A DNA stretch of 64,000 nucleotides, taken from positions 868,001 to 932,000 of the forward strand of contig NZ_LGTQ01000005.1 of the NCBI RefSeq assembly GCF_001306455.1. The letters run 5' to 3'. The notes below the pieces were generated by a model that saw only the letters and a list, made by a program, of their open reading frames with translations, searched no databases and was not told the origin of the DNA. This DNA is from Jiulongibacter sediminis. GTDB taxonomy: Bacteria; Bacteroidota; Bacteroidia; Cytophagales; Spirosomataceae. The position numbers were made by a program, and so were the translations under genes. Positions 10,948 to 43,677 of this stretch are shown here, piece after piece (position 1 is the first letter of the stretch; the number at the start of each line of letters is the position of its first letter).

Positions 10948-11307
10948 GTGCGGCCTTCTTTTCATATCGATCCTAAGTTGTACGACGAACTCCTCGAAAG
11001 TCTGAATGAAATGCACTTTACTGAAAGCAGAGGTAACATCACAGATTTTAATATTTACTTTGACGACTTGTGGCTTTCTGATACTGCTGTTGTCGAAAAT
11101 TTAAGTCTGGTACAAGGGATGTGGGATATCCAGTTGCTTTTTGCTTTGTCAAATAATCCGCTTCGATTTATTAAAAGATCAATTGTAAGCTCCCCAGATA
11201 AAAAACGAGCGACACTCACGGCCAGCCTTATGAGACGACTGGCGGCCAAAGATCAAAGGGGAACCCTTTGCATCAGAATTGAAGATTTGAACCTGTCTGA
11301 AAACTAG
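10948..11307 (+). CDS. Hypothetical protein between two TetR genes
   Basis: 119 residues, family not recognised. It starts with GTG at 10948; the in-frame upstream stop at 10933 leaves no ATG. The sequence is polar and mixed alpha/beta in look, with no signal peptide, membrane helix or cysteine motif. It contains NITDFNIYFDDLWLSDTAVV near the middle and a basic stretch (SPDKKRATLTASLMRRLAAK) near the end. It lies 6 bases before the second TetR gene, so they are probably cotranscribed from a promoter controlled by the inverted repeat at 10897. It could be a partner or modulator of the regulator. A reading error that hid a longer start is possible. Confidence 0.6.
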   Translation: MRPSFHIDPKLYDELLESLNEMHFTESRGNITDFNIYFDDLWLSDTAVVENLSLVQGMWDIQLLFALSNNPLRFIKRSIVSSPDKKRATLTASLMRRLAAKDQRGTLCIRIEDLNLSEN

Positions 11308-11313
11308 TTTTAC

Positions 11314-11931
11314 ATGCAGAAAACCAAAGACAAAATTATTCTGGCCTCGCTCAAACTTTTCAATGAGCACGGCTTAGCCAATGTAAGGCTGCAACAAATC
11401 GCAGATCATATCGGAATCAGTGTTGGTAATTTAGCCTATCATTTTAAAACTAAGGAGCAGATTGTTTTAACAGTCTATGAAGAGATGTTTTCAAAATATG
11501 AGCACATTCTTCAAAATTACCTTAAGAATCCTCATTTGCTTGATTTTGACCTTCAGGTTTCACAATTCTTTGAGTTTTTTAATGATTACAGATTTTACAT
11601 CGCTGATTTATTTACTAACGAACACCCTTTTCCTGAAGTACAGGAGAAATGGCAGGTACTAATTAATAAGCTGTGTATTCAGATCCGTAAACGTTTAGAT
11701 TTTCATGTTAAAAAAGGTGATCTGATTGCGGCAGAACCGAAGGTCTACGATAATCTTTCACAAACGCTGCTCATGCAAATCTTGTTTTGGATACCTCAGC
11801 AGGAAATCATGAAGAAGGTAGTTACCGCTTCCCGATATAAGGAAACCCTTTGGAATAATATTCAGCCTTATCTTACTACACAAGGAAAAGGCGAATTCTC
11901 TAAAATCAGCTTTCCTGAGATCTACGATTAA
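11314..11931 (+). CDS. TetR-family regulator 2 of the hydrogenase region
   Basis: 205 residues. The N-terminal TetR helix-turn-helix (about 1-50) has LQQIADHIGISVGNLAYHFKTK, sharing its recognition helix with TetR 1. The ligand domains of the two proteins are only loosely similar. Its gene is flanked by operator copies, one upstream at 10897 and two downstream at 11958-11999 in front of the hydrogenase small subunit. Autoregulation together with control of the hydrogenase is the simplest reading. The signal sensed cannot be told from sequence. Confidence 0.87.
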   Translation: MQKTKDKIILASLKLFNEHGLANVRLQQIADHIGISVGNLAYHFKTKEQIVLTVYEEMFSKYEHILQNYLKNPHLLDFDLQVSQFFEFFNDYRFYIADLFTNEHPFPEVQEKWQVLINKLCIQIRKRLDFHVKKGDLIAAEPKVYDNLSQTLLMQILFWIPQQEIMKKVVTASRYKETLWNNIQPYLTTQGKGEFSKISFPEIYD

Positions 11932-12064: not shown

Positions 12065-13048
12065 ATGGCAAATGTCCTATGGTTACAAGGTGGTGCCTGT
12101 AGTGGAAACACCATGTCATTCCTAAATGCTGAGGAGCCCACAGTGGTCGACTTGGTTACAGATTTCGGTGTTAACATTCTATGGCACCCTTCGATTGGTC
12201 TTGAAATAGGCCATCAGGTCTCAGACTTACTTCATGATATCGTCTCAGGAAAAGTCACCTGTGATATTCTTGTTTATGAAGGGAGTATCATAGAGGGACC
12301 GAATGGAACAGGAACAATGAACTATTTCGCCGAGAGACCAATGAAAGACTGGATAAAAGAGCTTTCAGCAGTTTGTGGTTATGTGGTGGCTATTGGTGAT
12401 TGTGCTACCTGGGGCGGTATTCCTGCTGTAGAGCCTAACCCTTCGGAGTCTACCGGAATGCAGTTCCTGAAAAAGAAAAAAGGCGGTTTTTTAGGAGCTG
12501 ATTATGTTTCAAAAGGAGGCCTGCCGGTCATAAATATTCCTGGATGCCCGGCACACCCTGATTGGATTACTCAAATTCTTGTTGCCATTGCCACAGGTAG
12601 AATCGGTGATGTTAAAATTGATGAATACCACAGACCCAGCACATTCTTTACTGACTTCGTTCAAACAGGTTGTACGAATGTTGTGAACTTTGCAAATAAG
12701 ATTGACGGTGGCTTTGGTAAACGGGGAAATGGCTGTTTATTCTATGAAGTAGGTTGCAGAGGGCCTATGACCAGAGCGAGCTGTAACAGAATTCTCTGGA
12801 ACAGACAGAGCAGTAAAACAAGAGCTAATCACCCTTGTTTAGGTTGTACTGAACCTGGTTTCCCTCATCATGACCTTCAAAAGGGAAGCGTGTTTAAAAC
12901 ACTAAAATATCTCGGTTTCTTACCTCAGGATGTACCTGCCGGACAATCAAAGCTTGGTTATTATCTGAGGGCTGGTTTTGAAAAAACCATGCATACGGCC
13001 GAGGTAGCTTTGGGTGTTGAAAAATCTCACTCTGATAGTTCTATTTAA
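12065..13048 (+). CDS. hupS: Group 2a [NiFe] hydrogenase small subunit
   Basis: 327 residues, the iron-sulphur subunit that carries electrons away from the NiFe site. There is no Tat signal, so the enzyme is cytoplasmic, as in group 2a. The start NVLWLQGGACSGNTMSFLNA is nearly that of cyanobacterial HupS. Candidate cluster ligands are C12, C113 (GDCATWGG) and C161 (IPGCPAHPDW) for the proximal cluster, and C203, C224, C231, C240, C258 and C261 for the others. The second cysteine of the usual CxxC is N15, and the usual distal histidine position is Q200, both as I recall for group 2a. Known members (cyanobacterial HupSL, mycobacterial Huc) oxidise H2, Huc at atmospheric levels. High affinity here is inference. 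Confidence 0.95.
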   Translation: MANVLWLQGGACSGNTMSFLNAEEPTVVDLVTDFGVNILWHPSIGLEIGHQVSDLLHDIVSGKVTCDILVYEGSIIEGPNGTGTMNYFAERPMKDWIKELSAVCGYVVAIGDCATWGGIPAVEPNPSESTGMQFLKKKKGGFLGADYVSKGGLPVINIPGCPAHPDWITQILVAIATGRIGDVKIDEYHRPSTFFTDFVQTGCTNVVNFANKIDGGFGKRGNGCLFYEVGCRGPMTRASCNRILWNRQSSKTRANHPCLGCTEPGFPHHDLQKGSVFKTLKYLGFLPQDVPAGQSKLGYYLRAGFEKTMHTAEVALGVEKSHSDSSI

Positions 13049-13065
13049 TCATACTTAACCTAATC

Positions 13066-13082
13066 TCAGGGTTCTGCCCTGA
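13066..13082 (+). other. Small hairpin between hupS and hupL
   Basis: TCAGGG-TTCTG-CCCTGA, a 6-base perfect stem in the 50-base gap between the two structural genes, without a T-run. A hairpin in this gap has been described for cyanobacterial hupSL. It could stabilise the message or adjust subunit ratio. That is inference. Confidence 0.5.
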
Positions 13083-13098
13083 AAGACATCTTAATAAA

Positions 13099-14688
13099 AT
13101 GGCAATTTCAAAAGAATTAAATATATCTCCGGTCGGTCGTGTGGAAGGTGACCTTGACGTCAAAGTTTACATGGAAGACGGTGTAGTGACCCGTGCTCAT
13201 ACTCAGGCAGCCATGTTTCGCGGTTTTGAAAGAATTATGGCCGGTAAAGATCCTCAATCAGGCCTGATTGTGACTCCCCGTATTTGTGGAATTTGTGGTG
13301 GTTCACACTTATACAGTGCGTCTTCGGCTTTAGATACGGCCTGGGGTACCACGCTAACACCCAACGCCCTTCTCTTAAGAGCCTTGGGACAGGCCACAGA
13401 AACTATTCAGAGTATTCCAAGATGGTTTTATGCCATTTTTGCGACTGATTTGGCCAACAAAAAGTTTGCGAACAAACCCTTGTACTCAGAGGTAGTGAAA
13501 AGATGGGCGGCTTATGTCGGCACCTCATTTCAGTCAGGTGTGACAGCCTCGGCTCTGCCTGTTCAGGTATATGCCTTATTTGGTGGTCAATGGCCACATT
13601 CCAGTTATATGGTGCCTGGTGGGGTTATGTGTGCTCCTACACTTAAGGACATTACCAGAGCTCACTCCATTATGAATCAATTCAGAAAGGACTGGCTTGA
13701 GACTACTTTTCTGGGATGTAGCATTGAAAGATACCTGGAAATAAAGTCCTGGGATCAATTAATGGCCTGGGTCGAAGAAAATGAAAGTCATAGAAATTCT
13801 GACCTGGGACTCTTTTTAAGAGCCGGACAGGAGTTTGGCTTACATAAGTTCGGACAGGGAGTTGGTAAATTCCTGGCCTACGGAACATACATACACAAAG
13901 ATTTATGGAATAAGCCAAAAATTGAAACCCGAAATCATGCCGTAATTTCTCCGTCTGGTTTCTGGGATGGAAGTTTCCATGAGTTTAATCACATGAACAT
14001 TCAGGAGCATGTGAAACACTCCTGGTACGATGATGTACCGGCCGCACACCCATGGGATGAACCATTACCAAGCCCTCTTCCCTCTCAGAATTTGATTGAT
14101 ACCAACTTTAACGAAAAATATAGTTGGTCTAAAGCTCCAAGATACGCCAACAGCCCGGCAGAAGTAGGTCCATTAGCCAGAGTTATCATGGCGGGGAATC
14201 CGGCTAATGCCGCCCACCAATATCAGGACCCTCTTTTCCTTGACGTTATGGATAAGTTTGGTCCAAGCGTGTTTACCCGCAGTTTGGCTCGATTACATGA
14301 AGCTGCCAGATTGTATGTGAATATCAATGACTGGCTAAGCCAGATTGATCTTAATGGTGAGTTTTATATCAAACCTGAAGAGAGAGATGGCAAAGGCTTC
14401 GGCTGTACGGAGGCAGCTCGCGGAGCTCTTGCTCACTGGATCGAAATTAAGAATGGTGTTATTGAAAACTATCAGGTTATGGCCCCTACCACCTGGAATG
14501 TAGGGCCAAACGATGAGGCCGGCAATCCGGGACCTATTGAGGCGGCTCTGGAAGGTACCGAAATTGAGGATCCGCATGATCCTGTAGAGGTAGGTTTGGT
14601 CGCTCGTTCTTTTGACTCCTGCCTGGTTTGTACCGTGCACGCCCATGACGGCAAAGACGGTAAAGAACTTACAAAGTTTAAACTTTAA
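13099..14688 (+). CDS. hupL: Group 2a [NiFe] hydrogenase large subunit
   Basis: 529 residues, the catalytic subunit that holds the NiFe(CN)2CO site. The nickel-binding motifs are intact: L1 R61-I-C63-G-I-C66-G-G-S-H70 and L2 D506-S-C508-L-V-C511-T-V-H514. The form DSCLVCTVH, rather than DPCxxCxxH, fits group 2a. Maturation should cut after H514 and release a 15-residue tail (AHDGKDGKELTKFKL), the job of the protease encoded next. It pairs with HupS encoded 50 bases upstream. A terminator-like hairpin follows the gene and may raise the amount of hupSL message over downstream genes. Confidence 0.95.
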   Translation: MAISKELNISPVGRVEGDLDVKVYMEDGVVTRAHTQAAMFRGFERIMAGKDPQSGLIVTPRICGICGGSHLYSASSALDTAWGTTLTPNALLLRALGQATETIQSIPRWFYAIFATDLANKKFANKPLYSEVVKRWAAYVGTSFQSGVTASALPVQVYALFGGQWPHSSYMVPGGVMCAPTLKDITRAHSIMNQFRKDWLETTFLGCSIERYLEIKSWDQLMAWVEENESHRNSDLGLFLRAGQEFGLHKFGQGVGKFLAYGTYIHKDLWNKPKIETRNHAVISPSGFWDGSFHEFNHMNIQEHVKHSWYDDVPAAHPWDEPLPSPLPSQNLIDTNFNEKYSWSKAPRYANSPAEVGPLARVIMAGNPANAAHQYQDPLFLDVMDKFGPSVFTRSLARLHEAARLYVNINDWLSQIDLNGEFYIKPEERDGKGFGCTEAARGALAHWIEIKNGVIENYQVMAPTTWNVGPNDEAGNPGPIEAALEGTEIEDPHDPVEVGLVARSFDSCLVCTVHAHDGKDGKELTKFKL

Positions 14689-14709
14689 GACTGAGCTTCT
14701 GTCGTGTTT

Positions 14710-14757
14710 AAAGGTTGAAAGGTTTTTGGTACATTACTGGAGCTTTTCAACCTTTTT
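14710..14757 (+). terminator. Intrinsic terminator or attenuator after hupL
   Basis: Perfect 11-base stem: AAAGGTTGAAA at 14710-14720 and TTTCAACCTTT at 14745-14755, with a 24-base loop, followed by TTTTTAATTTT. It lies inside the gene cluster, 15 bases before the maturation protease ATG. No clear second promoter is seen between it and that gene, so partial read-through is likely. Confidence 0.7.
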
Positions 14758-14772
14758 AATTTTGACCAAAAC

Positions 14773-15249
14773 ATGAGTAAAACAGCAATAATGGGTTTTG
14801 GTAACCCCTGTAGAAGTGATGATGGTATAGGCTGCTATGTTATTGACCGGCTTACCCAGGAAATATCAGACGAACGGGTGACTTTTTTTGATATGGGTAC
14901 CTCGGCCTTTGAAGTACTTTTCAATCTAAAAAACCACAATAAAATTATCATTGTAGATGCTGTAATAAACAGCGGTGAGAAACCCGGAACGATCTACAAA
15001 TTACCAGCTTCTGAAATAAATGCTTCGATTCAGGATGACCCTATGGTTTTTCTCCACAGTTTAAAATGGGATCAGGCACTTTCCTATGCAAAAAAAATCC
15101 TACAAGATGCTTACCCTGAAGATATTGTGGTCTATCTCATCTCTGTAGACAATACACGTCTTGAAATTGAACTATCTGCGGAAGTCAAAGAGGCAGGCGA
15201 AAAAGTTATTAAACTAATTAAGGAGGAGTTATTGCAAACCATCGAATGA
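14773..15249 (+). CDS. hupW: Hydrogenase maturation protease (M52 family)
   Basis: 158 residues. The endopeptidase trims the C-terminus of HupL once nickel is in place. The family start motif GFGNPCRSDDGIG is at 8-20. The predicted nickel-sensing residues are D16, D62 (IIIVDAV) and H95 (FLHSLKW), matching the E/D, D and H of HybD/HycI. The gene follows hupL and its hairpin, and its stop overlaps the next start (ATGA). Named hupW by analogy with the cyanobacterial HupL-specific protease. Pairing with the HupL here rests on the neighbourhood. Confidence 0.92.
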   Translation: MSKTAIMGFGNPCRSDDGIGCYVIDRLTQEISDERVTFFDMGTSAFEVLFNLKNHNKIIIVDAVINSGEKPGTIYKLPASEINASIQDDPMVFLHSLKWDQALSYAKKILQDAYPEDIVVYLISVDNTRLEIELSAEVKEAGEKVIKLIKEELLQTIE

Positions 15250-15554
15250 TTCAGCTCAAATCAGGACATCTTATTTTTGATCATAAACTTATCAAAGACG
15301 TTTTCTCTGAAGAAGACCAGGTCAATCATGTCTATTATCCTGAAAGAAAAAGCTTTCTGATTGCCCCGGCATCAAAAACTTTCTTCAAGAAAATGCATGA
15401 AACCAAATGGTCAAATCTGAAACTAAAAAATCTCCAAGGTGACAAATCTCTGTTTATAAGAGATTTAATCATAGATCATGAGATCAATGACGAGGATCGC
15501 GGTCTGACCTATGATTTAAAAAAAACAGGTTTCATTGAAATAGAACTTTATTAA
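15246..15554 (+). CDS. Hypothetical 102-residue protein of the hydrogenase operon
   Basis: 102 residues, family not recognised. It overlaps the protease gene by ATGA and the TPR gene starts one base after its stop, so it is almost surely translated as part of the operon. It has no signal peptide, no cysteines and no membrane helix. The fold looks alpha/beta, with a segment RKSFLIAPASKTFFKKMHE and an acidic middle (DLIIDHEINDEDRG). Its place between the maturation protease and a TPR protein suggests a role in assembly or in holding the enzyme, which is inference only. Confidence 0.75.
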   Translation: MIQLKSGHLIFDHKLIKDVFSEEDQVNHVYYPERKSFLIAPASKTFFKKMHETKWSNLKLKNLQGDKSLFIRDLIIDHEINDEDRGLTYDLKKTGFIEIELY

Positions 15555-17036
15555 ATGAAGAAAATATCAATTTCAGCTCCGGCACAATTGCACGAGCGTC
15601 TTAACTCATACATTAAGACTGAAGACCGACTTAACGAGGTCGTTGAACTAACAACCCTGCAGGGAAACCTCCTTATTGAGAATGAAAAAATTCTGGTACA
15701 ACCTGTCTGGACAAATGACGTCCCCCCTTTTCTATTCAATCAGGATATTGATCTAGACCAAAACAATTTTCTCTCTCTTGTTTTTACAAGACTTCAAAAC
15801 TTCAAAAAAGCCTATCAATATGCTCAGAATTCAGTCGGGCTTTTGAAACAGATTGATATTCTAAACAGGCTTCAGCATGGCATTGGCATCAATCCGGACG
15901 AAGTCGAAGGTCAAAAACCTGAATATATTGCATTCCATAATCATGCGGTTATATCACATTACGGCGAAACCCCTTTTTTCATCAATGCTTATCAGGTTAT
16001 AAACCAGTATCAAAAAGCGATGGACGCGGCTCCAAATGAGCTTTTACGAGCTTTCACTGGAAAGTATTTAGCCGAATTTCTTCTTGACTCCGGCGAAAAT
16101 GTAAAAGCTCATCATCTGGTCAAAGAGTTAAGAGAGATAGAGTTACCTGAGAATGCAGAAATGGAATTCCTTAACCTGGAATGTGGTATTCTACTCAATA
16201 AACTAACAGTACCATACGATGAAATTTTACTTAAGGAACTTGAAAACAAGCTCGCCCAAACCATACAATACTTTGAAAGCAGTGGTGACCAGATTCAGTT
16301 AGCCCTCAGGCTTGTTGATGCTTCTTATATCAGTAATATATCTGAAAACTTTAGTGAGTCTCTCGGTTATATCAATAAGGCCATTTCTACTTTTGAGAAT
16401 GAAGACGTTCCTGAATTGACAGCAAATGCTCAATATCGAAAAGGGGTACTGCTTTACACCTGGGCTCAAAATGGTAATCCACAGTTTTATAAGCCGGCAA
16501 TGGAAGCCTATCAGGAAGCCCTCAAGATTTTCACGGAAACCAGCACACCCGAGGTTTATAATGAAATACAACATCACCTTGGTGTAATATACTCTGAGAT
16601 TCCGTCCGATGTTAAAAAAAAGAGTATTTGGGCTGCTGTATCAATTAGTTCATTTAATCAGTCCCTTAGCTTTTTTACTCCTCAAACACACCCGTACGAG
16701 TACGCCATGATCTGTAACAGCTACGGTAATGCTTTCACAAAATACCCTGAGGCTGTTCAATCTGATAATTTTAAAAAAGCTTTGGAATACTATCGGAAAG
16801 CTCTGGCTATCAGAACTGCCGAAGAATATCCTACTGAAAGGGCTCTCACTCTCATGAACTTTCTCGAAGCTTCCTGGTATGTCGGAAATGAAAACGAGGA
16901 CGACGAGAGAATTTTATTTGAAGAAATGACCCATTACGCTAAAGAAATAAAACAATTGACCAGTGAAGAGAGACTTCTTGCTGACGCAGAAAGACATCTT
17001 TCAAAAATAGAAACTCTGGCCGAAAATATGTTTTAG
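15555..17036 (+). CDS. TPR-repeat protein of the hydrogenase operon
   Basis: 493 residues with no signal peptide or membrane helix. From about residue 235 to 440 there are tetratricopeptide-type hairpins, for example ESLGYINKAISTFENED, PAMEAYQEALKIFTETSTP and KALEYYRKALAIRTAEEYP. The N-terminal 100 residues are beta-rich and not recognised. TPR proteins occur, as I recall, in group 2a hydrogenase clusters of other phyla, so it is probably an assembly or interaction scaffold. Its stop codon lies inside operator copy 4, which marks the boundary of the first transcription unit and the start of the hyp unit. Confidence 0.85.
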   Translation: MKKISISAPAQLHERLNSYIKTEDRLNEVVELTTLQGNLLIENEKILVQPVWTNDVPPFLFNQDIDLDQNNFLSLVFTRLQNFKKAYQYAQNSVGLLKQIDILNRLQHGIGINPDEVEGQKPEYIAFHNHAVISHYGETPFFINAYQVINQYQKAMDAAPNELLRAFTGKYLAEFLLDSGENVKAHHLVKELREIELPENAEMEFLNLECGILLNKLTVPYDEILLKELENKLAQTIQYFESSGDQIQLALRLVDASYISNISENFSESLGYINKAISTFENEDVPELTANAQYRKGVLLYTWAQNGNPQFYKPAMEAYQEALKIFTETSTPEVYNEIQHHLGVIYSEIPSDVKKKSIWAAVSISSFNQSLSFFTPQTHPYEYAMICNSYGNAFTKYPEAVQSDNFKKALEYYRKALAIRTAEEYPTERALTLMNFLEASWYVGNENEDDERILFEEMTHYAKEIKQLTSEERLLADAERHLSKIETLAENMF

Positions 17037-17050
17037 AAAATTATTTCTAA
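17033..17050. promoter_or_regulatory. Operator copy 4 before hypA
   Basis: Perfect TTAGAAA-ATTA-TTTCTAA, extended to a 22-base near-palindrome at 17031-17052. It overlaps the TPR stop codon and sits just upstream of the predicted hypA -7 element. It ties the hyp operon to the same control as hupSL. Confidence 0.8.
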
Positions 17051-17060
17051 AACGACGTTT

Positions 17061-17068
17061 TAAGTTTG
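17061..17068 (+). promoter_or_regulatory. Predicted -7 element of the hypA promoter
   Basis: TAAGTTTG fits TAnnTTTG, 46 bases before the hypA ATG and 10 bases after operator copy 4. No TTTG lies at -33, where the operator is. The pattern parallels the hupS promoter. Confidence 0.5.
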
Positions 17069-17114
17069 TTCCGCTTGAAAATAGCCCTACTTTTAGGTTA
17101 ACAGATTTAATTGA

Positions 17115-17456
17115 ATGCACGAGATTTCGCTGGTCAGAAACATTTTCAATACTCTTGAAGCTGAATTTCCTGATGACTTCGACAGAATAAAAACAATTCA
17201 CCTGAAAGCTGGTATTTTATCCAATGTGCAGCCTATTTTAATGCAAAATGCTTTTGAAGCTGTTTTGGAAGACCAGCCTAAGTACCGTCACACCTCTCTT
17301 GAAGTGAATGTGGTGCCTGTAAAGATTTACTGTGATGATTGCCATAAAGAGACGGAAGTAATTCAGTATAAGTTTGTTTGTTCCTGCGGAAAACCCAGTA
17401 GAAATGTCATTCAGGGTGACGAGTTATTGATTTCAAAAGTAGATTTTACAGAATAA
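17115..17456 (+). CDS. hypA: Hydrogenase nickel-insertion chaperone HypA
   Basis: 113 residues. HypA brings nickel to the large subunit together with HypB. The nickel site M1-H2-E3 is present. The structural zinc site has C73-x-x-C76 and C89-x-C91. The second pair is CxC, where most HypA proteins have CxxC, so one residue is missing in this knuckle. The gene starts the hyp unit behind its own predicted promoter and operator. HypB follows after 6 bases. Cytoplasmic. Confidence 0.93.
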   Translation: MHEISLVRNIFNTLEAEFPDDFDRIKTIHLKAGILSNVQPILMQNAFEAVLEDQPKYRHTSLEVNVVPVKIYCDDCHKETEVIQYKFVCSCGKPSRNVIQGDELLISKVDFTE

Positions 17457-17462
17457 AAAGAT

Positions 17463-18170
17463 ATGGGAGTTAAAGCAAAATCAAACCAGATGCCCACGGG
17501 CTCAGTACAGTGTGATAATACCACAATGCATTTGCTGAAGGCTAATGACTTTGTCGCCAAGGCTATTAAAGATAAATTAGGTAACACACTTGTCATTAAT
17601 GTCTGCTCCTCACCGGGCAGTGGCAAAACAACGCTGATGCAGGAGACCGGCAAAATATTAAAAGATAAGCTGAAAATGGCTGTGCTGGTCGGGGACTGTG
17701 AAACAGAACGCGATGCTGTACGCATCAGAGAAGCCGGAATAGAAAGCCTTCAAATAGTAACCGGAGGTATGTGCCACATTGAGGCTCAAATGGTCTATCA
17801 GGCTCTGGATTATATTGATATTAAAGGTCTTGACCTATTATTCATTGAAAATGTAGGCAACCTGGTTTGTCCTGCAGCTTTTGACCTTGGTGAAGATTTT
17901 CGTGTCACATTACTGGCCTGTACCGAAGGCGATGATAAACCCAAAAAATACCCAAGAATGTTTTTGACAAGTGAGTTAATGCTTGTTTCTAAATCAGACA
18001 TCCTCCAATATTTACCTTTCTCGGTAGAAGCTGTAACTCAGGACGCCCGAGACATTAACCCCGATATTGAAGTCATTACAATCTCCAGTCTGAACGGCGA
18101 AGGAATACAGGAATGGTGCGATTGGCTACTCGCTAAAGTTGAAGAGAAGAAAGCCGTGGCAGTGGCATAA
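17463..18170 (+). CDS. hypB: Hydrogenase nickel-incorporation GTPase HypB
   Basis: 235 residues of a SIMIBI-class GTPase that drives nickel delivery to HupL. The P-loop SSPGSGKTT is at 49-57. The dimer-interface metal site is conserved as C104-H105 with C136. The N-terminus has neither the CxxCGC motif of E. coli HypB nor a histidine-rich nickel-storage stretch, so nickel storage is not expected here. The stop codon directly abuts the hypF start. Cytoplasmic. Confidence 0.94.
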   Translation: MGVKAKSNQMPTGSVQCDNTTMHLLKANDFVAKAIKDKLGNTLVINVCSSPGSGKTTLMQETGKILKDKLKMAVLVGDCETERDAVRIREAGIESLQIVTGGMCHIEAQMVYQALDYIDIKGLDLLFIENVGNLVCPAAFDLGEDFRVTLLACTEGDDKPKKYPRMFLTSELMLVSKSDILQYLPFSVEAVTQDARDINPDIEVITISSLNGEGIQEWCDWLLAKVEEKKAVAVA

Positions 18171-20465
18171 ATGATTTCTTATCCACCTGAAATATTGACC
18201 AAAAATTGTACCGCATATGAACTCAACATCAGCGGAATGGTACAGGGCGTGGGCTTCAGGCCTTTTGTCTACAAATTGGCCTATGAGTGGGGGCTAACTG
18301 GCTACGTGAAAAACACGACCGAAGGAGTCTGCATCTATTTACAAACAGATCCGATAACCATTGACACGTTTATTGAGCAAATCAGGTTTCATTTTGGTGA
18401 ACATATTTTTATCAGAGAGTTGGCAGTCACTAAGGTGAAGAACTTAAACCTAAACGACTTTTCAATTCATCATGACCTGAAATTGGCCCCTGCAAAAGTT
18501 TCTATTACCCCTGACTTAGCCACCTGTGAAGACTGCCTGCAAGAGTTATTTGACTCACAAAACAGAAGAAGCAATTACGGATATAATTCCTGTACACTAT
18601 GCGGTCCAAGATACTCCATTTTAAACAGCCTTCCTTTTGATAGAGAAAACACCATGATGGCCGATTTTGGTCTCTGCCCTTCTTGTCAACAGGAATATGA
18701 AAACAGTAGAGACCGACGATTTTTTGCTCAAACCATTTCTTGTTCTGAATGCGGGATTAGGCATCAATTATTTGATCAGCACGACCAGGAAATAAATCTA
18801 ACACAATCTGAAATCATCGGTTTTGCGGCAAAGAGAATTTCTGAAGGCAAAATTCTTTGTATTAAAGCAATCGGTGGTTTTCATTTGGTAGCCGACGCCA
18901 CCAACCATAAGGCTATAAAAGAGCTAAGAGAAAGAAAAAACAGGCCATCCAGGCCCTTTGCTGTGATGTTTCGCAATTCAAGCCAAGTGCGGGAATATAC
19001 CGAAGCTAGCCTTGCCGAACTTGAGGAATTGCAATCAGAAAAAGCCCCTATAGTCATTGTGAAACAAAAAAGCGGCACCAATCTCGCGAATGCAGTTGGG
19101 CCGGGTATAAATTCAGTCGGGGCTTTTCTGGCGTATAATCCTTTCTATCATTTACTACTTGACCAGTTGGCTCATCCGGTGGTCGCCACCAGTGCAAACT
19201 TGAGTGGAGAGCCTATTATCTATAAAAACGACAAGGCACAAGAAGACCTTAGAGGCATATATGATTATTTAGTGACTAATAATCGTCCAATTTCTATACC
19301 TCAGGACGACTCTGTTATAAGATTAAGTCCAAGACACAATAAGAAAATCATTCTAAGAAGAAGCCGGGGCTTCAGATTAGATGAAACCAGCCTTAAATTG
19401 AAAAAACCGGTGCTCTGTATGGGCTCAGATCTGAAATCCACTTTTACGCTGCAGACTGGCCATCAAACCTTTATCTCTCAATATTTAGGTGACCTTGAGA
19501 GCTTTCAAAGCCAAGAGAATTTTAATTTGGTTCTGACTCAATTCAGGAAACTTTTTATTCGTGACGGGCAGATTAAAAGTGTCTTAACTGATGCCCATCC
19601 TTTGTTTTACAGTAGCAGTTTGGGTAAAAGAATTGCGGATGATGAGCACCTGTCAATTATTCCAATTCAACATCATATAGCTCATTTTGCTGCCGTTTTT
19701 GGAGAACATTCTTCGTCATCTAGCCAACGCTCATTAGGTGTTGTGTGGGATGGTACAGGATACGGTGATGATGGGCAAATCTGGGGAGGTGAGTTTTTTC
19801 TATCTGATGGATCAAGTCTGAAGAGGGTTGCCCATTTGGAATATTTCAGAGTCATCTCCGGCAACAGGATGTCAAAAGAAACCAGACTTTCAGCATTATC
19901 GCTTACGGAGAGTAATGAGTTAAAGCCAAAATTTACAGAAAGGGAATGGAACAACTACAGAAAACTGAAGGCCGCCTCTCAAACTTGTACTAGCTCAATG
20001 GGCCGTGTTTTTGATGCTATCGCATCAATAATTGGCCTTACAGACCACCAAACATTTGAAGGAGAAGCTGCCATGCTTCTGGAGCAAAAGGCCCAGTCCT
20101 ATTTTGATGTCAATGGTTATGCACCTTTACCCTACTACACTTTTGAAAAAGATGAAAAAATCGACGTCTATTCCATGGTAGAATCAATTTTTAAGGATCT
20201 GAACCTGGATATAAATCCGGAAGAAATTGCCGCCAGATTTCATGAAACTTTGGTTAAAATCATTGAAAAAATGGCCCAAAAGTATCATTCAGATGATATT
20301 TACTTCAGCGGAGGAGTTTTCCAAAATGCTCTTCTTGTTGACCTCATCATTGAAAGGTTATCAGGTTCGTACTCCCTTTATTTTCACGAAAAACTTTCTC
20401 CGAATGACGAGAACATCTCATTTGGACAGTTATCATACTTTAAAAACTTCAACCCATGTGTTTAG
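18171..20465 (+). CDS. hypF: Carbamoyltransferase HypF
   Basis: 764 residues. HypF makes the thiocarboxamide on HypE from carbamoyl phosphate, the source of the cyanide ligands. All domains are present in the usual order: acylphosphatase with GMVQGVGFRP at 22-31; two zinc fingers with cysteine pairs 119/122, 141/144, 169/172 and 191/194; a YrdC-like domain (about 205-385); and a Kae1-like domain with HHIAHFAAV, VWDGTGYGDDGQIWGGEFF and SGGVFQNA. Its last 10 bases overlap the start of hypC. Full length. Confidence 0.95.
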   Translation: MISYPPEILTKNCTAYELNISGMVQGVGFRPFVYKLAYEWGLTGYVKNTTEGVCIYLQTDPITIDTFIEQIRFHFGEHIFIRELAVTKVKNLNLNDFSIHHDLKLAPAKVSITPDLATCEDCLQELFDSQNRRSNYGYNSCTLCGPRYSILNSLPFDRENTMMADFGLCPSCQQEYENSRDRRFFAQTISCSECGIRHQLFDQHDQEINLTQSEIIGFAAKRISEGKILCIKAIGGFHLVADATNHKAIKELRERKNRPSRPFAVMFRNSSQVREYTEASLAELEELQSEKAPIVIVKQKSGTNLANAVGPGINSVGAFLAYNPFYHLLLDQLAHPVVATSANLSGEPIIYKNDKAQEDLRGIYDYLVTNNRPISIPQDDSVIRLSPRHNKKIILRRSRGFRLDETSLKLKKPVLCMGSDLKSTFTLQTGHQTFISQYLGDLESFQSQENFNLVLTQFRKLFIRDGQIKSVLTDAHPLFYSSSLGKRIADDEHLSIIPIQHHIAHFAAVFGEHSSSSSQRSLGVVWDGTGYGDDGQIWGGEFFLSDGSSLKRVAHLEYFRVISGNRMSKETRLSALSLTESNELKPKFTEREWNNYRKLKAASQTCTSSMGRVFDAIASIIGLTDHQTFEGEAAMLLEQKAQSYFDVNGYAPLPYYTFEKDEKIDVYSMVESIFKDLNLDINPEEIAARFHETLVKIIEKMAQKYHSDDIYFSGGVFQNALLVDLIIERLSGSYSLYFHEKLSPNDENISFGQLSYFKNFNPCV

Positions 20466-20743
20466 CAATTCCCGGAAAAATCAAGTCAATAGAACTACAG
20501 TACGATGGTGTGGTAAGAATGGCCAAAGTGCTTTTTGGAGGTATCACTAAAGAGGCCAGTTTGGAAATGCTGCCTGACGCCGAAGTTGGTGATTATGTTC
20601 TGGTACATGTTGGTGTAGCCATCTCAAAAATTGATGAAGAGGAAGCTCAGAAATCATTCAAATACCTCGAAGAAATCGGTGAAATAGATGAACTGGTAGA
20701 ACATAGTCAGATAGATCGGAACGGCGGCCGGTGTCCGCTTTAG
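20456..20743 (+). CDS. hypC: Hydrogenase assembly chaperone HypC
   Basis: 95 residues. Starts MCLAIPGKI with the essential C2, and has the conserved histidine in VLVHVGVAISKIDEEEA. With HypD it carries the Fe(CN)2CO unit to the large subunit. It is slightly longer than the usual 75-85 residues because of a polar tail. It overlaps hypF by 10 bases and precedes hypD. It is the only hypC/hupF-type gene in the island, so it probably serves both general steps and large-subunit escort. Confidence 0.94.
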   Translation: MCLAIPGKIKSIELQYDGVVRMAKVLFGGITKEASLEMLPDAEVGDYVLVHVGVAISKIDEEEAQKSFKYLEEIGEIDELVEHSQIDRNGGRCPL

Positions 20744-20763
20744 AAAAACAAAAATCCGAAGAT

Positions 20764-21867
20764 ATGAAATTTTTAAGCGAATACAGGAATCCTGAAATTG
20801 TACATCAGTATATTGATGAACTTCATAAAATAACCACCAAGGAATGGACTATCATGGAAGTTTGCGGAGGCCAAACCCATAGTCTGGTAAAAAATGGTAT
20901 TCTCAATATTCTACCTGACAAAATAAATATGGTTCATGGGCCGGGTTGTCCGGTTTGTGTAACCCCTCTGAATCTAATTGACAAAGCTGTACACCTTGCA
21001 GAAGACAAAGGAGTCATTCTGTGTTCCTACGGCGATATGATTAGGGTGCCCGGCTCTAAAAAAAGCCTGCTCGAGGCTAAAGCCACCGGGGCTGATATCC
21101 GAATCATGTATTCACCACTTGAAGCCATTAAAATAGCCCGCGAAAACCCAGATAAGGAAGTCGTCTTTTTTGCTGTTGGCTTTGAGACCACTGCTCCGGC
21201 GAATGCTTTATCAATCATTCATGCAGAAAGAGAGGGTCTAACGAACTATTCGGTTCTCGCTTCACATGTGCTGGTACCACCTGCTATTGAAGCAGTTATG
21301 AATGATTCAGATACCCAAATTCAGGGTTTTCTGGCTGCGGGTCATGTGTGTACTATAATGGGTACCGGAGAATATGAACCGCTGGCACAGAAGTATAATA
21401 TTCCAATAGTAGTGACTGGTTTTGAGCCCGTAGATCTACTTCAGGGAATTCTTATGACCGTCCGTCAACTGGAGAATGGCGAAGCCCGTCTGGAAAACCA
21501 ATATGCAAGGGTAGTAAGACCAGAAGGTAATCCGGCCGCCATTGAAATGCTGAATCGGGTTTTCCAAATGGAAGATCGCGAGTGGCGGGGGTTGGGAACT
21601 ATACCCAATAGCGGCTGGAATATCAGAACTGAACTGGAAGCTTATAATGCTGATATTAAGTTCAATGTCAATATTTTAAAAGTACCCGAATGTGCTGATT
21701 GCATTGCCGGACAGGTTTTAAAAGGAATAAAAAAGCCTTTTGAGTGCAGTCAGTTTGGCACAAACTGCACACCCGAAAAACCTCTGGGAGCCCCAATGGT
21801 CTCCTCTGAGGGTGCCTGTGCTGCCTACTATCATTACTCAAACGCCGGAGACGAAGTAAACGCCTGA
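20764..21867 (+). CDS. hypD: Hydrogenase iron-cofactor assembly protein HypD
   Basis: 367 residues from the ATG at 20764, chosen because MKFLSEYRNPE aligns with the usual HypD start. A GTG at 20731 inside hypC is possible but less likely. It is the iron-sulphur scaffold for the Fe(CN)2CO group. The redox and iron-binding cysteines are C34 (MEVCGGQTH) and the pair C62/C65 (GPGCPVCVTP). The C-terminal [4Fe-4S] cysteines lie in CADCIAGQ, FECSQFGTNC and SEGACAAYY. All catalytic motifs are intact. The hypE ATG follows 6 bases after the stop. Confidence 0.94.
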   Translation: MKFLSEYRNPEIVHQYIDELHKITTKEWTIMEVCGGQTHSLVKNGILNILPDKINMVHGPGCPVCVTPLNLIDKAVHLAEDKGVILCSYGDMIRVPGSKKSLLEAKATGADIRIMYSPLEAIKIARENPDKEVVFFAVGFETTAPANALSIIHAEREGLTNYSVLASHVLVPPAIEAVMNDSDTQIQGFLAAGHVCTIMGTGEYEPLAQKYNIPIVVTGFEPVDLLQGILMTVRQLENGEARLENQYARVVRPEGNPAAIEMLNRVFQMEDREWRGLGTIPNSGWNIRTELEAYNADIKFNVNILKVPECADCIAGQVLKGIKKPFECSQFGTNCTPEKPLGAPMVSSEGACAAYYHYSNAGDEVNA

Positions 21868-21873
21868 AAATAA

Positions 21874-22914
21874 ATGATTGCACTAGACTGCCCAATGCCT
21901 AAACTGGATTTTGACGTCATTACGCTGGGACATGGCTCTGGCGGTGTATTGACCAATAAGCTTCTGAAAAGTGGCGTTTTTGATTTACTCAAAAATCCAT
22001 TGCTGGACACCCACCACGACGGAGCTGTTTTTGAGCTTAATGGCAAAACCGCTTTCAGTACTGACAGCTACGTTATTTCTCCAATCTTTTTCCCGGGGGG
22101 AAACATTGGCGAGCTGGCCATTAACGGTACTGTGAACGATCTGGCTATGTGCGGAGCCCAACCCAAATATCTTTCACTAAGCTTTATTATTGAAGAAGGT
22201 TTAAAAATGACCGAATTCTGGGAGGTCCTGGTCAGTATTAAAAAAGCAGCCGATACAGCCGGAGTTCAGATTGTTACCGGTGATACTAAAGTGGTAGAGA
22301 AAGGAAAAGGTGACAAACTTTTCATCAATACCGCTGGTGTGGGTCAACTAATGTCAAAGGCCAACATTGATATGAACCAAGTCAAACCCGGAGACAAAGT
22401 TATTGTCTCTGACAGTATTGCAAATCACGGAATTGCTGTAATGTCAATCCGGGAAGGTTTGGAATTTGAGACCTCAATCTTAAGCGACACCAGACCTCTT
22501 AATGGTATCGTAGGGAAGCTCATAGAAGAGTTTGGCTATGACATCCATTTACTGAGAGATGCCACAAGGGGCGGAGTGGCCTCAGTCCTGAATGAAATTG
22601 CTCAGGATGCTCAGGTCGGCATTGAAATTCTTCAAAAACATACTCCTGTAGACCCCGAAGTGGAGGGAGCATGTGAAATGTTAGGGCTGGATCCGCTTTA
22701 TGTTGCCAATGAAGGAGTATTTATGATTATAGCTGATGCACAGATAGCTGATGACATTGTACAAATGCTCCGCACTTTTGAGGGGTCAAAAAAGGCTACA
22801 ATTCTTGGTGAGATTGTCGAAGGGCATAAGCGACAGGTTATATTGCAAAGTGCAATTGGCGGTAAAAGAGTATTAAATATGCTGGTGGGCGAGCAGCTTC
22901 CCCGCATCTGCTAA
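21874..22914 (+). CDS. hypE: Carbamoyl dehydratase HypE
   Basis: 346 residues. HypE dehydrates the thiocarboxamide on its C-terminal cysteine to a thiocyanate that becomes the cyanide ligand. It has the PurM-like fold with LGHGSGGVLTNKLL near the start and the C-terminal tail PRIC, whose last residue is the acceptor cysteine. The stop shares one base with the start of the NHL gene (TAATG), so translation is coupled. The ATG is followed by about ten residues before the family start; a later start is not needed. Confidence 0.95.
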   Translation: MIALDCPMPKLDFDVITLGHGSGGVLTNKLLKSGVFDLLKNPLLDTHHDGAVFELNGKTAFSTDSYVISPIFFPGGNIGELAINGTVNDLAMCGAQPKYLSLSFIIEEGLKMTEFWEVLVSIKKAADTAGVQIVTGDTKVVEKGKGDKLFINTAGVGQLMSKANIDMNQVKPGDKVIVSDSIANHGIAVMSIREGLEFETSILSDTRPLNGIVGKLIEEFGYDIHLLRDATRGGVASVLNEIAQDAQVGIEILQKHTPVDPEVEGACEMLGLDPLYVANEGVFMIIADAQIADDIVQMLRTFEGSKKATILGEIVEGHKRQVILQSAIGGKRVLNMLVGEQLPRIC

Positions 22915-24092
22915 TGATAGATTTAAACATAGATATTAATCTCAAAGACCTATACCCCAGGCCTTTAAATATGCCTGAGGTGCCTCCTACTTTTTATAAG
23001 TCACTAGCCGGAGCGGATCCTCTCGTAAGCCAATATCAGATTTTTAAGGGCTCCAAACATTCTCCTTTCCTGGCTCCGAGGGGAGTTCTTCTTGACAAAA
23101 ACTTACTTGCAGTCTCCGATACAGGGCAAAACAGGGTTTTCATCTGGAAGAAAGTCCCTAAAGAGGAATTTGCCGAACCTGATATAGTTTTAGGTCAAAC
23201 TAATAGTGATAGCACAGGTAGAAATTCAGGATTATCCGTTACAGCCTGCACATTGCATTATCCATCTGGAATTTGGTCAGATGGTGAAAAGCTCATTGTA
23301 GCAGATGCCTGGAATCACCGGGTACTGATTTGGCATAGATTTCCTGAAATAAATGGACAGCCCGCTGATGTAGTTCTGGGCCAGCCCGGCTTTGAAACCA
23401 ATGAGCCTAATGTTCATGGAATCGGTAGCCTTCCATCATCTCAATCTCTAAACTGGCCCTACGGAGTTTTTGTAAAAGACAACCAGCTCTTCATCGCCGA
23501 TACAGGTAACCGTAGAATTCTCTATTTTAAGAGCATTCCTGAGAATAATTATGCCAAGGCTGACGGAGTTATTGGCAAAAAAGACTTTGAAACCCGTGAT
23601 TATGAAAATAATGAACCTATTTGGCCCTATTCTTTACACATTAACGATCAGGGTAATTTGTCCGTAGCGGATACCCAGTTTTATCGTAATCTGATCTGGA
23701 AAAAATGGGAAGACGCCTTTGAAAAGGAAGCAGACCTCATTATAGGACAAAATGGCTTTAATGATGCAGGTCAAAATCAGTTTCACCTCTTCCCTAAAGA
23801 AAACACCATGAACTGGACCTACACCAGTCATTTTTATAAAAATGGGATATTCATAGCCGACACAGGTAATAGCAGGCTACTGTGGTTTTCAAAACTTCCG
23901 GATAGAAATAATTCCCCGGCTGACAACCTTATAGGCCACGATAATTTTAATACCGGAAGTGAAAATCAAAATACTAAATATGGTACAGAGAGCCAGCTTT
24001 ACTGGCCATTTTCAATCTCATCTTATAAGAATAAATTAGCTATTGCCGATACAGGTAATCATCGTGTGGTTCTGACAGAATTAACCATTTAA
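22914..24092 (+). CDS. NHL-repeat beta-propeller protein of the hydrogenase operon
   Basis: 392 residues with no signal peptide, so probably cytoplasmic. Six NHL-type blades are readable from their signatures: SDTGQNRVFIW, ADAWNHRVLIW, ADTGNRRILYF, ADTQFYRNLIW, ADTGNSRLLWF and ADTGNHRVVL. The repeats are spaced about 55-65 residues apart, as in a six-bladed propeller. No cysteine cluster motif is seen, so it is not an obvious redox protein. Coupling to hypE places it in the hydrogenase operon. NHL proteins are, as I recall, found beside group 2a hydrogenases elsewhere. A role in complex assembly or docking is inference. Confidence 0.88.
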   Translation: MIDLNIDINLKDLYPRPLNMPEVPPTFYKSLAGADPLVSQYQIFKGSKHSPFLAPRGVLLDKNLLAVSDTGQNRVFIWKKVPKEEFAEPDIVLGQTNSDSTGRNSGLSVTACTLHYPSGIWSDGEKLIVADAWNHRVLIWHRFPEINGQPADVVLGQPGFETNEPNVHGIGSLPSSQSLNWPYGVFVKDNQLFIADTGNRRILYFKSIPENNYAKADGVIGKKDFETRDYENNEPIWPYSLHINDQGNLSVADTQFYRNLIWKKWEDAFEKEADLIIGQNGFNDAGQNQFHLFPKENTMNWTYTSHFYKNGIFIADTGNSRLLWFSKLPDRNNSPADNLIGHDNFNTGSENQNTKYGTESQLYWPFSISSYKNKLAIADTGNHRVVLTELTI

Positions 24093-24095
24093 CCT

Positions 24096-24707
24096 ATGAC
24101 TGATTTAACATTTATCGCATTTTCTACCGCTATGGTTGGTTTTTTACATGCCTTTGAGGCGGATCACATAGTGGCCGTGAGTAATCTGGTAACAAGGAGA
24201 TCTTCGACAAAACTGGCCATTAAAGACGGAGCTTTCTGGGGGCTCGGGCACAGCAGCATTATTCTTATAGTCGGTCTTATATTCTTGTTAGGTAAATTCC
24301 TGTTGGATGAAACTCTATTTGGATATTTTGAGGTTATTGTGGGGCTTATGCTCATTATTTTAGGCATAATAAGACTCCGCAAAGTGATTATTGATAACAA
24401 TTCACCAACGCATCATCATGACCATAAGGTAGCGTATGGTGTGGGAGCAGTTCATGGTTTGGCCGGCAGTGGTGCCGTCATCATCGCGGCACTTTCAGAG
24501 ACTAAATCTCCAAATGAGGGCATTATCTATCTTATTCTTTTCGGTATTGGTTCTATTTTGGGAATGATGCTGGCAGCCGGTGTTTTCAGTCTGCCTTTTT
24601 CTACTTTCTTTTTAAAAAACAAGAACATCACAAAAGCTCTTAGCTTGCTCTCCGCCCTTTTATGCATTGGGCTGGGAAGCTTCATCATATACGAGAACCT
24701 TATATGA
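24096..24707 (+). CDS. NicO/UreH-type nickel permease
   Basis: 203 residues with about six membrane helices. The transition-metal signature H-x4-D-H is H18-AFEA-D23-H24 in helix 1, with a second histidine H52 in GLGHSS. A histidine-rich cytoplasmic or periplasmic loop HHHDH lies at 106-110, followed by H120. This pattern belongs to the nickel/cobalt NicO/UreH/SodT group. In this operon it most likely imports nickel for the hydrogenase. Cobalt or export activity cannot be excluded from sequence. The next gene overlaps its stop as ATGA. Confidence 0.85.
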   Translation: MTDLTFIAFSTAMVGFLHAFEADHIVAVSNLVTRRSSTKLAIKDGAFWGLGHSSIILIVGLIFLLGKFLLDETLFGYFEVIVGLMLIILGIIRLRKVIIDNNSPTHHHDHKVAYGVGAVHGLAGSGAVIIAALSETKSPNEGIIYLILFGIGSILGMMLAAGVFSLPFSTFFLKNKNITKALSLLSALLCIGLGSFIIYENLI

Positions 24708-24934
24708 GCGAGTACAATGAGGCAGACTTTGTAGCATATGCCCTAAGTCAAATGGATCTGGAAGTCATCACCAGAAATGGAAAATATTTCAACCTTAAAA
24801 ATGGCTTCGACATAGAGGTTGAGAAAAAAGATCTCTATAGATTATCAAAGGAAGGTTGGGTAATTTCACCTTTTGACGATATTGGTCAACTCATTGAATT
24901 CATCAAAAAAAATGAGGGACATGCAGAAGATTGA
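24704..24934 (+). CDS. Hypothetical 76-residue protein of the hydrogenase operon
   Basis: 76 residues from the ATG at 24704, which overlaps the permease stop (ATGA). A longer reading from 24662 would run inside the permease gene and is rejected. The protein is acidic and polar with no cysteine, signal or membrane helix: ADFVAYALSQMDLEVITRNG, then a lysine-rich middle and IGQLIEFIKKN. Family not recognised. The downstream gene starts inside its last codons, so the three are translated together. Confidence 0.7.
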   Translation: MSEYNEADFVAYALSQMDLEVITRNGKYFNLKNGFDIEVEKKDLYRLSKEGWVISPFDDIGQLIEFIKKNEGHAED

Positions 24935-25478
24935 AGTCAACGTCATCGCTCTAACAGAGAGTGTATCAAAACCTCAACATTATGTTCTGATACTTCAAGA
25001 GCCCAAATCTAAGAAGCGTATTCCTATTATTATTGGGATTCATGAGGCTAAATCTATAGCCATGTTTATGGAGAAACTAACGCCCTCAAGACCACAAACT
25101 CATGATCTTTTTATCTCCTTTTTTGATAAACTTCAATCAAAACTAAAAGAGGTCTTCATACATACACTAGATGATCAAACCTATTATAGTAAGGTTTTCT
25201 TTCATGATACTTACAAGGCCCTCCATGAAATAGATGCAAGACCGTCAGATGCTATTGCAATAGCTATTCGATGCGACTGCCCTATTTTTATCAGTGAGCT
25301 GATTCTCGAAACAACGGGATACCTCATTGACGAAAAAGGTAGAGAGAAAAAAGGCTCTTACGCAGAATACTCTATGCGGGAGCTGGAAGAACTTCTTGAA
25401 AAAGTCATTTTGAAAGAAGATTACGAAAGTGCAATTAGAATTAGAGAGGCTATAGAACGCCGAAAAAAAGCTCAATGA
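24921..25478 (+). CDS. Bifunctional nuclease (BFN/DUF151) domain protein with UVR motif
   Basis: 185 residues from the ATG at 24921, preferred over an ATG at 24912 and an earlier frame start at 24873. The BFN domain (about 1-130) shows LILQEPKSKKRIPIIIGIHEAKSI and ARPSDAIAIAIR, the conserved core of DUF151. The C-terminal 40 residues match a UvrB/UvrC-type interaction motif (EDYESAIRIREAIERRKK). Such proteins are common single genes in Bacteroidota. Here it is the last gene of the hydrogenase operon, overlapping its neighbour by 14 bases. A link to hydrogenase function is not established. Confidence 0.85.
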   Translation: MQKIEVNVIALTESVSKPQHYVLILQEPKSKKRIPIIIGIHEAKSIAMFMEKLTPSRPQTHDLFISFFDKLQSKLKEVFIHTLDDQTYYSKVFFHDTYKALHEIDARPSDAIAIAIRCDCPIFISELILETTGYLIDEKGREKKGSYAEYSMRELEELLEKVILKEDYESAIRIREAIERRKKAQ

Positions 25479-43254: not shown

Positions 43255-43677
43255 CTATTCGAACCTAGAATCCAAATCAAGCATTTGATTGTCAACAATT
43301 TGAATTTGAGACGCCTCAGAATGTAAAGGATTGATGATGTAATTATGCTCTTGCGGAAAAATGACGCTCTGCACTTTGGCATAAAGCAATTCATTCTCTT
43401 CCAAAAAGTTGTCGCCGGTAGTTTTATTGTCGTCGCCGAGATAGGATAAAGGAGTTTCGGCCTGCTCAGGAAGTTCAAGGCTAAGTAAGTGATACTCGTT
43501 CATTCTAACCAATTCGATCGGCATGTGAACCAAAAGCTCCAGTAAAGCCAATGATCGGTGGCCGGCGGCGTAGAGCATATATTTCCCTTTTGAATTCCAA
43601 CGCCCACCGTGCAGAAACGCTCCTCTCCCACTCAAATCATTGGCGTATACTTTTTGGCAAATACGATAAACTATCAT
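43255..43677 (-). CDS. RES-domain toxin
   Basis: 140 residues. RES family: YRICQKVYANDLSGRGA, then GGRWNSKG with R26, ALLELLVH with E47, and an aromatic/serine-containing core. RES toxins degrade or modify NAD+ in known cases. The start codon overlaps the antitoxin stop by 4 bases (ATGA at 43674-43677). The size is that of the compact RES toxins. It is convergent with the aldo/keto reductase, the two stop codons being 2 bases apart. Confidence 0.92.
   Translation of the reverse strand: MIVYRICQKVYANDLSGRGAFLHGGRWNSKGKYMLYAAGHRSLALLELLVHMPIELVRMNEYHLLSLELPEQAETPLSYLGDDNKTTGDNFLEENELLYAKVQSVIFPQEHNYIINPLHSEASQIQIVDNQMLDLDSRFE

Follow-up and report, generated by a model that had tools for sequence, protein, structure and literature searches.

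A Huc-like group 2a [NiFe] hydrogenase island of Jiulongibacter sediminis keeps the menaquinone-site residues but lacks HucE and HucM

Introduction

Group 2a [NiFe] hydrogenases take up H2 aerobically, in many cases to concentrations as low as those in air. The sole one of solved structure is Huc from Mycobacterium smegmatis, in which the small subunit HucS itself reduces menaquinone, bound via Tyr301, the backbone of Lys212 and Tyr229 (PMC10017518). Two electron routes have been published for such enzymes: in one paper HucE is the putative acceptor (2019), in the other menaquinone is reduced directly by way of a HucM stalk (2023). Purified Huc consists of HucS, HucL and HucM, and does not include HucE. 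Here we describe a hydrogenase gene island of the Huc kind from Jiulongibacter sediminis (Bacteroidota), contained in a stretch of 64,000 nucleotides (the window; contig NZ_LGTQ01000005.1, positions 868,001 to 932,000). A first-pass annotation of this DNA had recognized a group 2a island, had seen no redox-partner gene in it and had left the path of electrons to the respiratory chain open.

The island resembles Huc in both subunits, the iron-sulfur cysteines, the menaquinone-site residues, the protease and the TPR and NHL proteins, with the Mycobacterium intracellulare plasmid copy serving for the comparison of operon genes. Unlike Huc, it has neither HucM (a DUF1641 protein) nor HucE (a NifU-Rieske protein), the tail of its small subunit HupS is different, and a TetR-orf119-TetR arrangement stands in front. 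Cyanobacterial HupSL with the extended hyp operon likewise comes with genes for TPR and NHL proteins, placed between hupSL and hyp or next to them; Nostoc differs, however, by a NifU-like gene, two small membrane proteins and a role in nitrogen fixation (PMC2408588), whereas nitrogenase was not found here. ForCE of Bacillus subtilis is likewise a soluble enzyme with proposed menaquinone reduction in the absence of a membrane cytochrome (PMC8808070), but its catalytic subunit is unrelated and its DUF1641 subunit, ForE, has no counterpart here. The Bacteroidota-associated group 2a clade of Islam 2020 (PMC7784904) is very probably the same as ours, HucL forming one radiation; that paper reports hucE as commonly associated in general, and its accessible passages do not mention a lack in Bacteroidota. 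Among open-licence papers we found none stating that HucE or HucM is lacking in Bacteroidota; the operons in Fig. S4 of Islam 2020 could show it.

A group 2a enzyme of the Huc kind

Both subunits have their top PDB match in M. smegmatis Huc, HupL (529 residues) in the large subunit (E 1.4e-191; next family 1e-61) and HupS (327 residues) in the small one (E 1.2e-136; next family 1e-32). HupL is the sole [NiFe] large subunit found in the genome (4.47 Mb, 99.92% complete), and is 52-58% identical to eight group 2a enzymes of other phyla compared with 34% to the group 2b sensor HoxC. Related loci were the best 80 of 407 confirmed in a species-level collection (HupL identity 69-87%). In a FastTree phylogeny of 92 large subunits all group 2a sequences fall together (support 0.649, the outgroup being two sequences only), all 82 Bacteroidota-type sequences form one clade (0.986), and the window HupL groups with four Runella sequences (0.693), joined by Emticicia and Lacihabitans (0.996). 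The earlier assignment to group 2a is thus borne out by the PDB matches of both subunits and by the position of HupL inside the group. In addition, all nine cluster-type cysteines shared with Mycobacterium are invariant across the 72 HupS compared, the reading frames of the window are intact and the set of maturation genes is complete. Taken together, the sequence comparisons indicate that the island holds the full complement of genes for a Huc-like, cytoplasmic [NiFe] hydrogenase of group 2a. Its catalytic core is an ordinary member of the family, from a clade already in print (Islam 2020, PMC7784904).

HucE and HucM are not detectable

For comparison with other phyla we turned to a plasmid collection, in which 36 records matched, 17 of them at 52% identity or more and the others at 37% or less. 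Ten of the 17 were compared, the remainder being Roseovarius and six further Bradyrhizobium records: two from Bacteroidota and one each from Mycobacterium, Sulfobacillus, Thermus, Sphingopyxis, Bradyrhizobium, Octadecabacter, Mesorhizobium and Novosphingobium. All eight non-Bacteroidota operons carry a NifU-Rieske gene (hucE) after the gene in the TPR position and just before the one in the NHL position; neither Bacteroidota plasmid locus has HucE or DUF1641 at E 0.01. A profile built from the HucE of five operons recovered five of five in a leave-one-out control and is matched end to end by the HucE of the three remaining operons. Near hucS, a DUF1641 protein occurs in Mycobacterium, Thermus and Sulfobacillus, the mycobacterial one being HucM (PDB 7uus_Q, E 2.9e-34). 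Sphingopyxis and Bradyrhizobium have in its place proteins of about 70 residues with strongly hydrophobic stretches, which recall the pair of small membrane proteins in Nostoc (PMC2408588).

In the J. sediminis genome the HucE profile gives single-domain matches only, with two NifU-domain and six Rieske-domain open reading frames (ORFs) that are separate and away from the island. One NifU gene adjoins an ATPase-like frame matched by the NifH model and looks like housekeeping cluster assembly. HucM (DUF1641, PF07849) has no match in the genome even at E 1. The ORF list and tblastn with HucE and HucM homologues over the whole window revealed no Rieske/NifU or DUF1641 gene, and no cytochrome b gene was seen among the window ORFs. 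The genome-wide HucE search covered 50 relatives, the other 30 being covered at their hup loci by tblastn: 48 of the 50 match at 1e-10, yet none spans both domains. At the 80 hup loci, tblastn with three homologues found no DUF1641, and HucE gave only two weak rows (E 0.085 and 0.92, 48 residues each). Genome-wide, DUF1641 is missing from 46 of the 50 relatives and lies within frames of 261-363 residues in four; the domain also serves as ForE in a formate dehydrogenase linked to menaquinone (PMC8808070), and a ForE-type role possibly accounts for these four. When ORFs of the 80 loci and the window were clustered, no NifU-, Rieske- or cytochrome-like cluster appeared among those present in at least eight loci. 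In 28 of the 75 loci examined, the region from hupS to the TPR gene holds short hydrophobic frames, 45 in all, that might hide a small membrane anchor; 40 of the 45, read unaligned, gave no family shared between loci save an identical pair (L065/L067). As judged by sequence searches, the two proteins that have been put forward as links between group 2a enzymes and the chain are both missing here and in the relatives searched. The first-pass observation that the island holds no redox-partner gene therefore stands, and the wider search that it had proposed found no protein with both HucE domains in the rest of the genome, and likewise no HucM.

Menaquinone site and tail of HupS

The window HupS keeps all three menaquinone-site positions as Lys212, Tyr227 and Tyr299, equivalent to Lys212, Tyr229 and Tyr301 of Huc, whose numbering is used below. 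In tblastn alignments read for the 80 loci, position 212 is Lys in 79 (Arg in L086), position 229 is Tyr in 79 (Phe in L071) and position 301 is Tyr in 78 (His in L086 and L115). An alignment of 74 Bacteroidota-type HupS (71 loci, two plasmids and the window) gives Lys 74, then Tyr 73 and Phe 1, then Tyr 73 and His 1; L086 is one of nine loci that it omits for want of a usable ORF, and the end of L069 is broken, the 80-locus count being the better one. None of the three positions varies among the eight other-phyla group 2a enzymes. The group 2b sensor HoxB has Lys, Glu and Phe there, and the Ideonella outgroup Asp, Phe and Tyr. Beyond residue 285, Tyr301 is the only position other than Gly or Pro with at least 97% conservation. 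L086 is the single locus in which two site positions change together, Lys212 becoming Arg and Tyr301 becoming His; its hupS could represent degeneration of the copy, an error of assembly or genuine variation.

Right after the quinone-site tyrosine, the lineage-specific Bacteroidota tail follows the pattern Tyr-Tyr-x-x-Ala-Gly-x-x-Lys ... Ser-Lys; among the 74 sequences it ends in Ser-Lys (65), Ser-Ile (5), Thr-Lys (2) or Thr-Ile (1), and one is broken. The HupS of other phyla end in FVV or FVP within a Glu-Asp-x-Phe-Val motif in all eight cases. This motif tracks HucE (present in 8/8) and not DUF1641 (3/8). Because a single evolutionary event may underlie the pattern, the link between tail and HucE is a lead, not proof.

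Electron transfer to the respiratory chain

We consider it probable that this enzyme reduces menaquinone directly on HupS, without a HucM stalk or HucE. HupL would oxidize H2, electrons would run along the three iron-sulfur clusters of HupS, the distal cluster would reduce menaquinone held on HupS itself, and menaquinol would feed the aerobic respiratory chain. With menaquinone reduced on HupS, and the quinone site thus in use, a separate redox-partner gene would be unneeded. The genome encodes MenD and two heme-copper oxidases, all above cut-off. Of the puzzle posed by the first-pass annotation, the missing partner gene remains, but the electron route need no longer be called wholly open, as the menaquinone site on the small subunit is conserved. 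An obligatory role of HucE as electron acceptor is unlikely, because the quinone site is kept while HucE is absent from this genome and the relatives searched.

Several points weigh against direct reduction. M. smegmatis cannot do without HucE, dye staining included, and its absence here would therefore call for a replacement or for assembly by another route. Without HucM there is no evident path for menaquinone from the membrane, and the hup loci yielded no conserved membrane anchor. Conservation of the site residues may have causes other than quinone binding; two of the three positions are altered in L086, and one each in L115 and L071. A Robiginitalea strain, of the Bacteroidota and with a group 1l enzyme, did not substantially consume H2 (PMC10305171), and the literature yielded no H2-activity data for this strain or any Bacteroidota group 2a enzyme.

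HucE could instead be replaced, between HupS and the chain, by a redox partner whose gene lies elsewhere in the genome, for instance an Nfu protein on its own, a ferredoxin of the Rieske type or some other soluble carrier. The genome does hold NifU- and Rieske-domain frames, and H2 uptake by M. smegmatis needs HucE, but here the two domains sit in separate frames distant from the island, one of the NifU genes probably serves housekeeping cluster assembly, Huc was purified without HucE, and the loss of dye reduction in the hucE mutant also fits an assembly role; we hold such a partner to be unlikely. It is similarly improbable that one or more of the island proteins orf119, orf102, TPR and NHL (listed below) form a new adapter that replaces HucM, the end acceptor still being menaquinone. 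HucM is indeed absent, and orf119 and orf102 are widely conserved alongside hupSL; however, relatives of these proteins adjoin HucM or HucE in other phyla and are thus not specific substitutes, the models of orf102 and orf119 are unlike a coiled-coil stalk, orf102 is free of cysteine and orf119 has no widely conserved one. A third alternative is an H2 sensor or a non-functional relic instead of an uptake enzyme, which the two TetR regulators at the front of the block might favour. Against this stand the intact frames, the complete maturation genes, the low identity of HupL to HoxC relative to group 2a enzymes, the lack of two of the three quinone-site residues in HoxB and the absence of a histidine kinase among the neighbouring window ORFs, and we regard it as highly improbable.

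Whether direct menaquinone reduction, with the HupS tail making membrane or oligomer contacts, extends to a multi-order Bacteroidota group 2a clade lacking HucE and HucM is more doubtful, yet a fair possibility. If so, the clade would be a natural deletion arguing that HucE is not the electron acceptor, and the conserved Glu-Asp-x-Phe-Val tail of other HucS would go with HucE, for example by docking it while clusters are inserted. A clade with the quinone site retained and both HucE and HucM missing separates the two published route ideas and supplies test organisms. It also bears on which soil and water Bacteroidota might use trace H2, at which the present enzyme may work, and on how simple a Huc-like catalyst can be.

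The genome has no NifH above cut-off (best 26.8 bits versus 394) and no match for RuBisCO; therefore neither the cyanobacterial role, in which H2 from nitrogenase is recycled, nor autotrophy by way of RuBisCO is likely. The natural reading would be that external H2 is used mixotrophically, by analogy with other group 2a carriers in which this has been shown (PMC7784904, PMC10305171).

Organization of the island

The genes of the conserved block are given below. The counts in brackets are related loci, out of 80, with a tblastn match to the window protein; they are lower bounds, as many loci stop at contig ends.

10262-10885, + strand: TetR-type regulator 1 (TetR1), first gene of the conserved block; TetR_N 28.2 bits (46)
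10948-11307, + strand: orf119, GTG start, small alpha/beta protein (65)
11314-11931, + strand: TetR-type regulator 2 (TetR2); TetR_N 43.1 bits (46)
12065-13048, + strand: hupS, small subunit with the positions of three iron-sulfur clusters and the menaquinone site; starts MANVLW; PDB match (80)
13099-14688, + strand: hupL, catalytic large subunit; DSCLVCTVH, then a 15-residue extension; PDB match (80)
14773-15249, + strand: hupW, hydrogenase maturation protease; HycI 68.1 bits, TIGR00072 above cut-off (75)
15246-15554, + strand: orf102, small protein with MraZ-like predicted fold (59)
15555-17036, + strand: TPR protein, conserved group 2a accessory gene (74)
17115-17456, + strand: hypA, read from sequence (72)
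17463-18170, + strand: hypB, read from sequence (62)
18171-20465, + strand: hypF; TIGR00143, 666 bits (58)
20456-20743, + strand: hypC, read from sequence (63)
20731-21867, + strand: hypD, GTG start, read from sequence (64)
21874-22914, + strand: hypE, read from sequence (55)
22914-24092, + strand: NHL-repeat protein, conserved group 2a accessory gene; NHL 62.6 bits (53)
24096-24707, + strand: nicO, nickel permease-like membrane protein, strongly hydrophobic; NicO 24.7 bits, E 1.7e-5, just below the Pfam curated cut-off of 27.7 (24)
24704-24934, + strand: orf76, small soluble protein (15)
24918-25478, + strand: bifunctional-nuclease (BFN) domain protein, last gene; BFN_dom 124.7 bits (16)

As determined from the ORF list, Pfam and NCBIfam, every gene named by the first-pass annotation is present on the + strand in the order given there. 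HupS has no Tat signal, residue 2 onward aligning with mature HucS, and the DSCLVCTVH motif of HupL was likewise confirmed. The tight packing is evident from six overlaps of 1-17 bp (hupW/orf102 4 bp, hypF/hypC 10, hypC/hypD 13, hypE/NHL 1, nicO/orf76 4 and orf76/BFN 17) and a widest intergenic gap of 133 bp. While the gene content at 12065-25478 holds, the start of the island does not: comparison of related loci places the beginning of the conserved block at 10262, with TetR-orf119-TetR. We count orf119 as part of the system because other relatives place it between the protease/orf102 and TPR genes. Gene order is common to related loci far above chance. The TPR and NHL genes are present as noted earlier but are no peculiar extras, since each is homologous to its counterpart in five of five other-phyla operons compared.

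Small accessory proteins

ORF clustering places orf102 in 72 and orf119 in 66 of 81 loci (the 80 and the window). The predicted structure of orf102 (predicted local distance difference test, pLDDT, 96) aligns with MraZ, of the swapped-hairpin MraZ/AbrB type, in VIA-align at Z 7.5-7.8, a value below 8 that may mean only a common arrangement (root mean square deviation 2.6-2.8, 89-90 residues, 11-14% identity; next row Z 3.5), and its best Foldseek E value is 0.039. An orf102 profile scores 18.3 bits in Bradyrhizobium and 11.3 in Sphingopyxis, in each case against the small protein that occupies the corresponding position of the operon, the best shuffle reaching 5.5. For orf119 the model is alpha/beta (pLDDT 84) and a structure search gave no row above Z 4.8; its profile matches a small protein of the mycobacterial huc operon (28.7 bits versus 8.8 for the best of 2400 shuffles). 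Pfam and NCBIfam contain no match for orf102 and orf76, and Pfam none for orf119. When orf102, orf76 and the profiles of orf119 and orf102 were searched against PDB sequences, only chance-level rows came back. From their models, neither orf102 nor orf119 looks like a stalk or an electron carrier; a role in regulation or assembly would be a guess.

As the missing redox partner, orf102, TPR and NHL were each rejected, orf102 being cysteine-free and TPR and NHL homologues adjoining HucE in other phyla. A 165-residue Sulfobacillus protein was considered as an orf102-orf119 fusion, which is not established: its match to orf119 is weak (11.1 bits versus 8.8, best of 2400 shuffles) and confined to the C-terminal half, and the N-terminal half has no orf102 match.

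Ten loci carry orf119 twice (L053, L055, L070, L083, L086, L102, L108, L110, L116 and L126), with a longer (about 118 residues) and a shorter (about 107 residues) copy at different places of the island, which suggests two subfamilies. Among clusters in at least eight loci, a single one has no window counterpart, a 289-residue protein with several hydrophobic stretches found in eight loci (for example L118, 14555-15415) within reach of the hydrogenase genes. In alphaproteobacterial operons (L133, 11790-12499; L134, 13692-14343), two small proteins directly after hupL share a four-cysteine motif ending Cys-(Arg/Lys)-Leu-Trp-Arg-Ile; the L133 pair has no Pfam match, and these proteins are possibly metal or cluster binders.

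Distribution among Bacteroidota

The 80 loci are mostly labelled as Cytophagales, Saprospiraceae, Chitinophagales and Flavobacteriaceae, with a few metagenome bins under other labels. In a draw of 395 Bacteroidota genomes, 102 have a HupL match at E 1e-30, and only five, this genome included, reach at least 77% identity over nearly the whole of HupL; the next are partial, at about 42% or less. Two Bacteroidota carry the same island on plasmids, Runella slithyformis (pRUNSL01, L132) and Hymenobacter psoromatis (L135). The HupL of the R. slithyformis plasmid is 81% identical to that of the window, compared with 85-87% for four other Runella copies; in view of the plasmid copies and this lower identity, the island may be mobile. 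Four bins labelled Rickettsiales, Alphaproteobacteria, Thalassobius and Gemmatimonadaceae (L073, L123, L124 and L125) have hydrogenases within the Bacteroidota clade, for which either wrong binning or transfer would account.

Elsewhere in the window, two adjoining genes on the - strand (43255-44132; 140 and 152 residues) form a putative pair of RES-domain toxin and Xre-type antitoxin.

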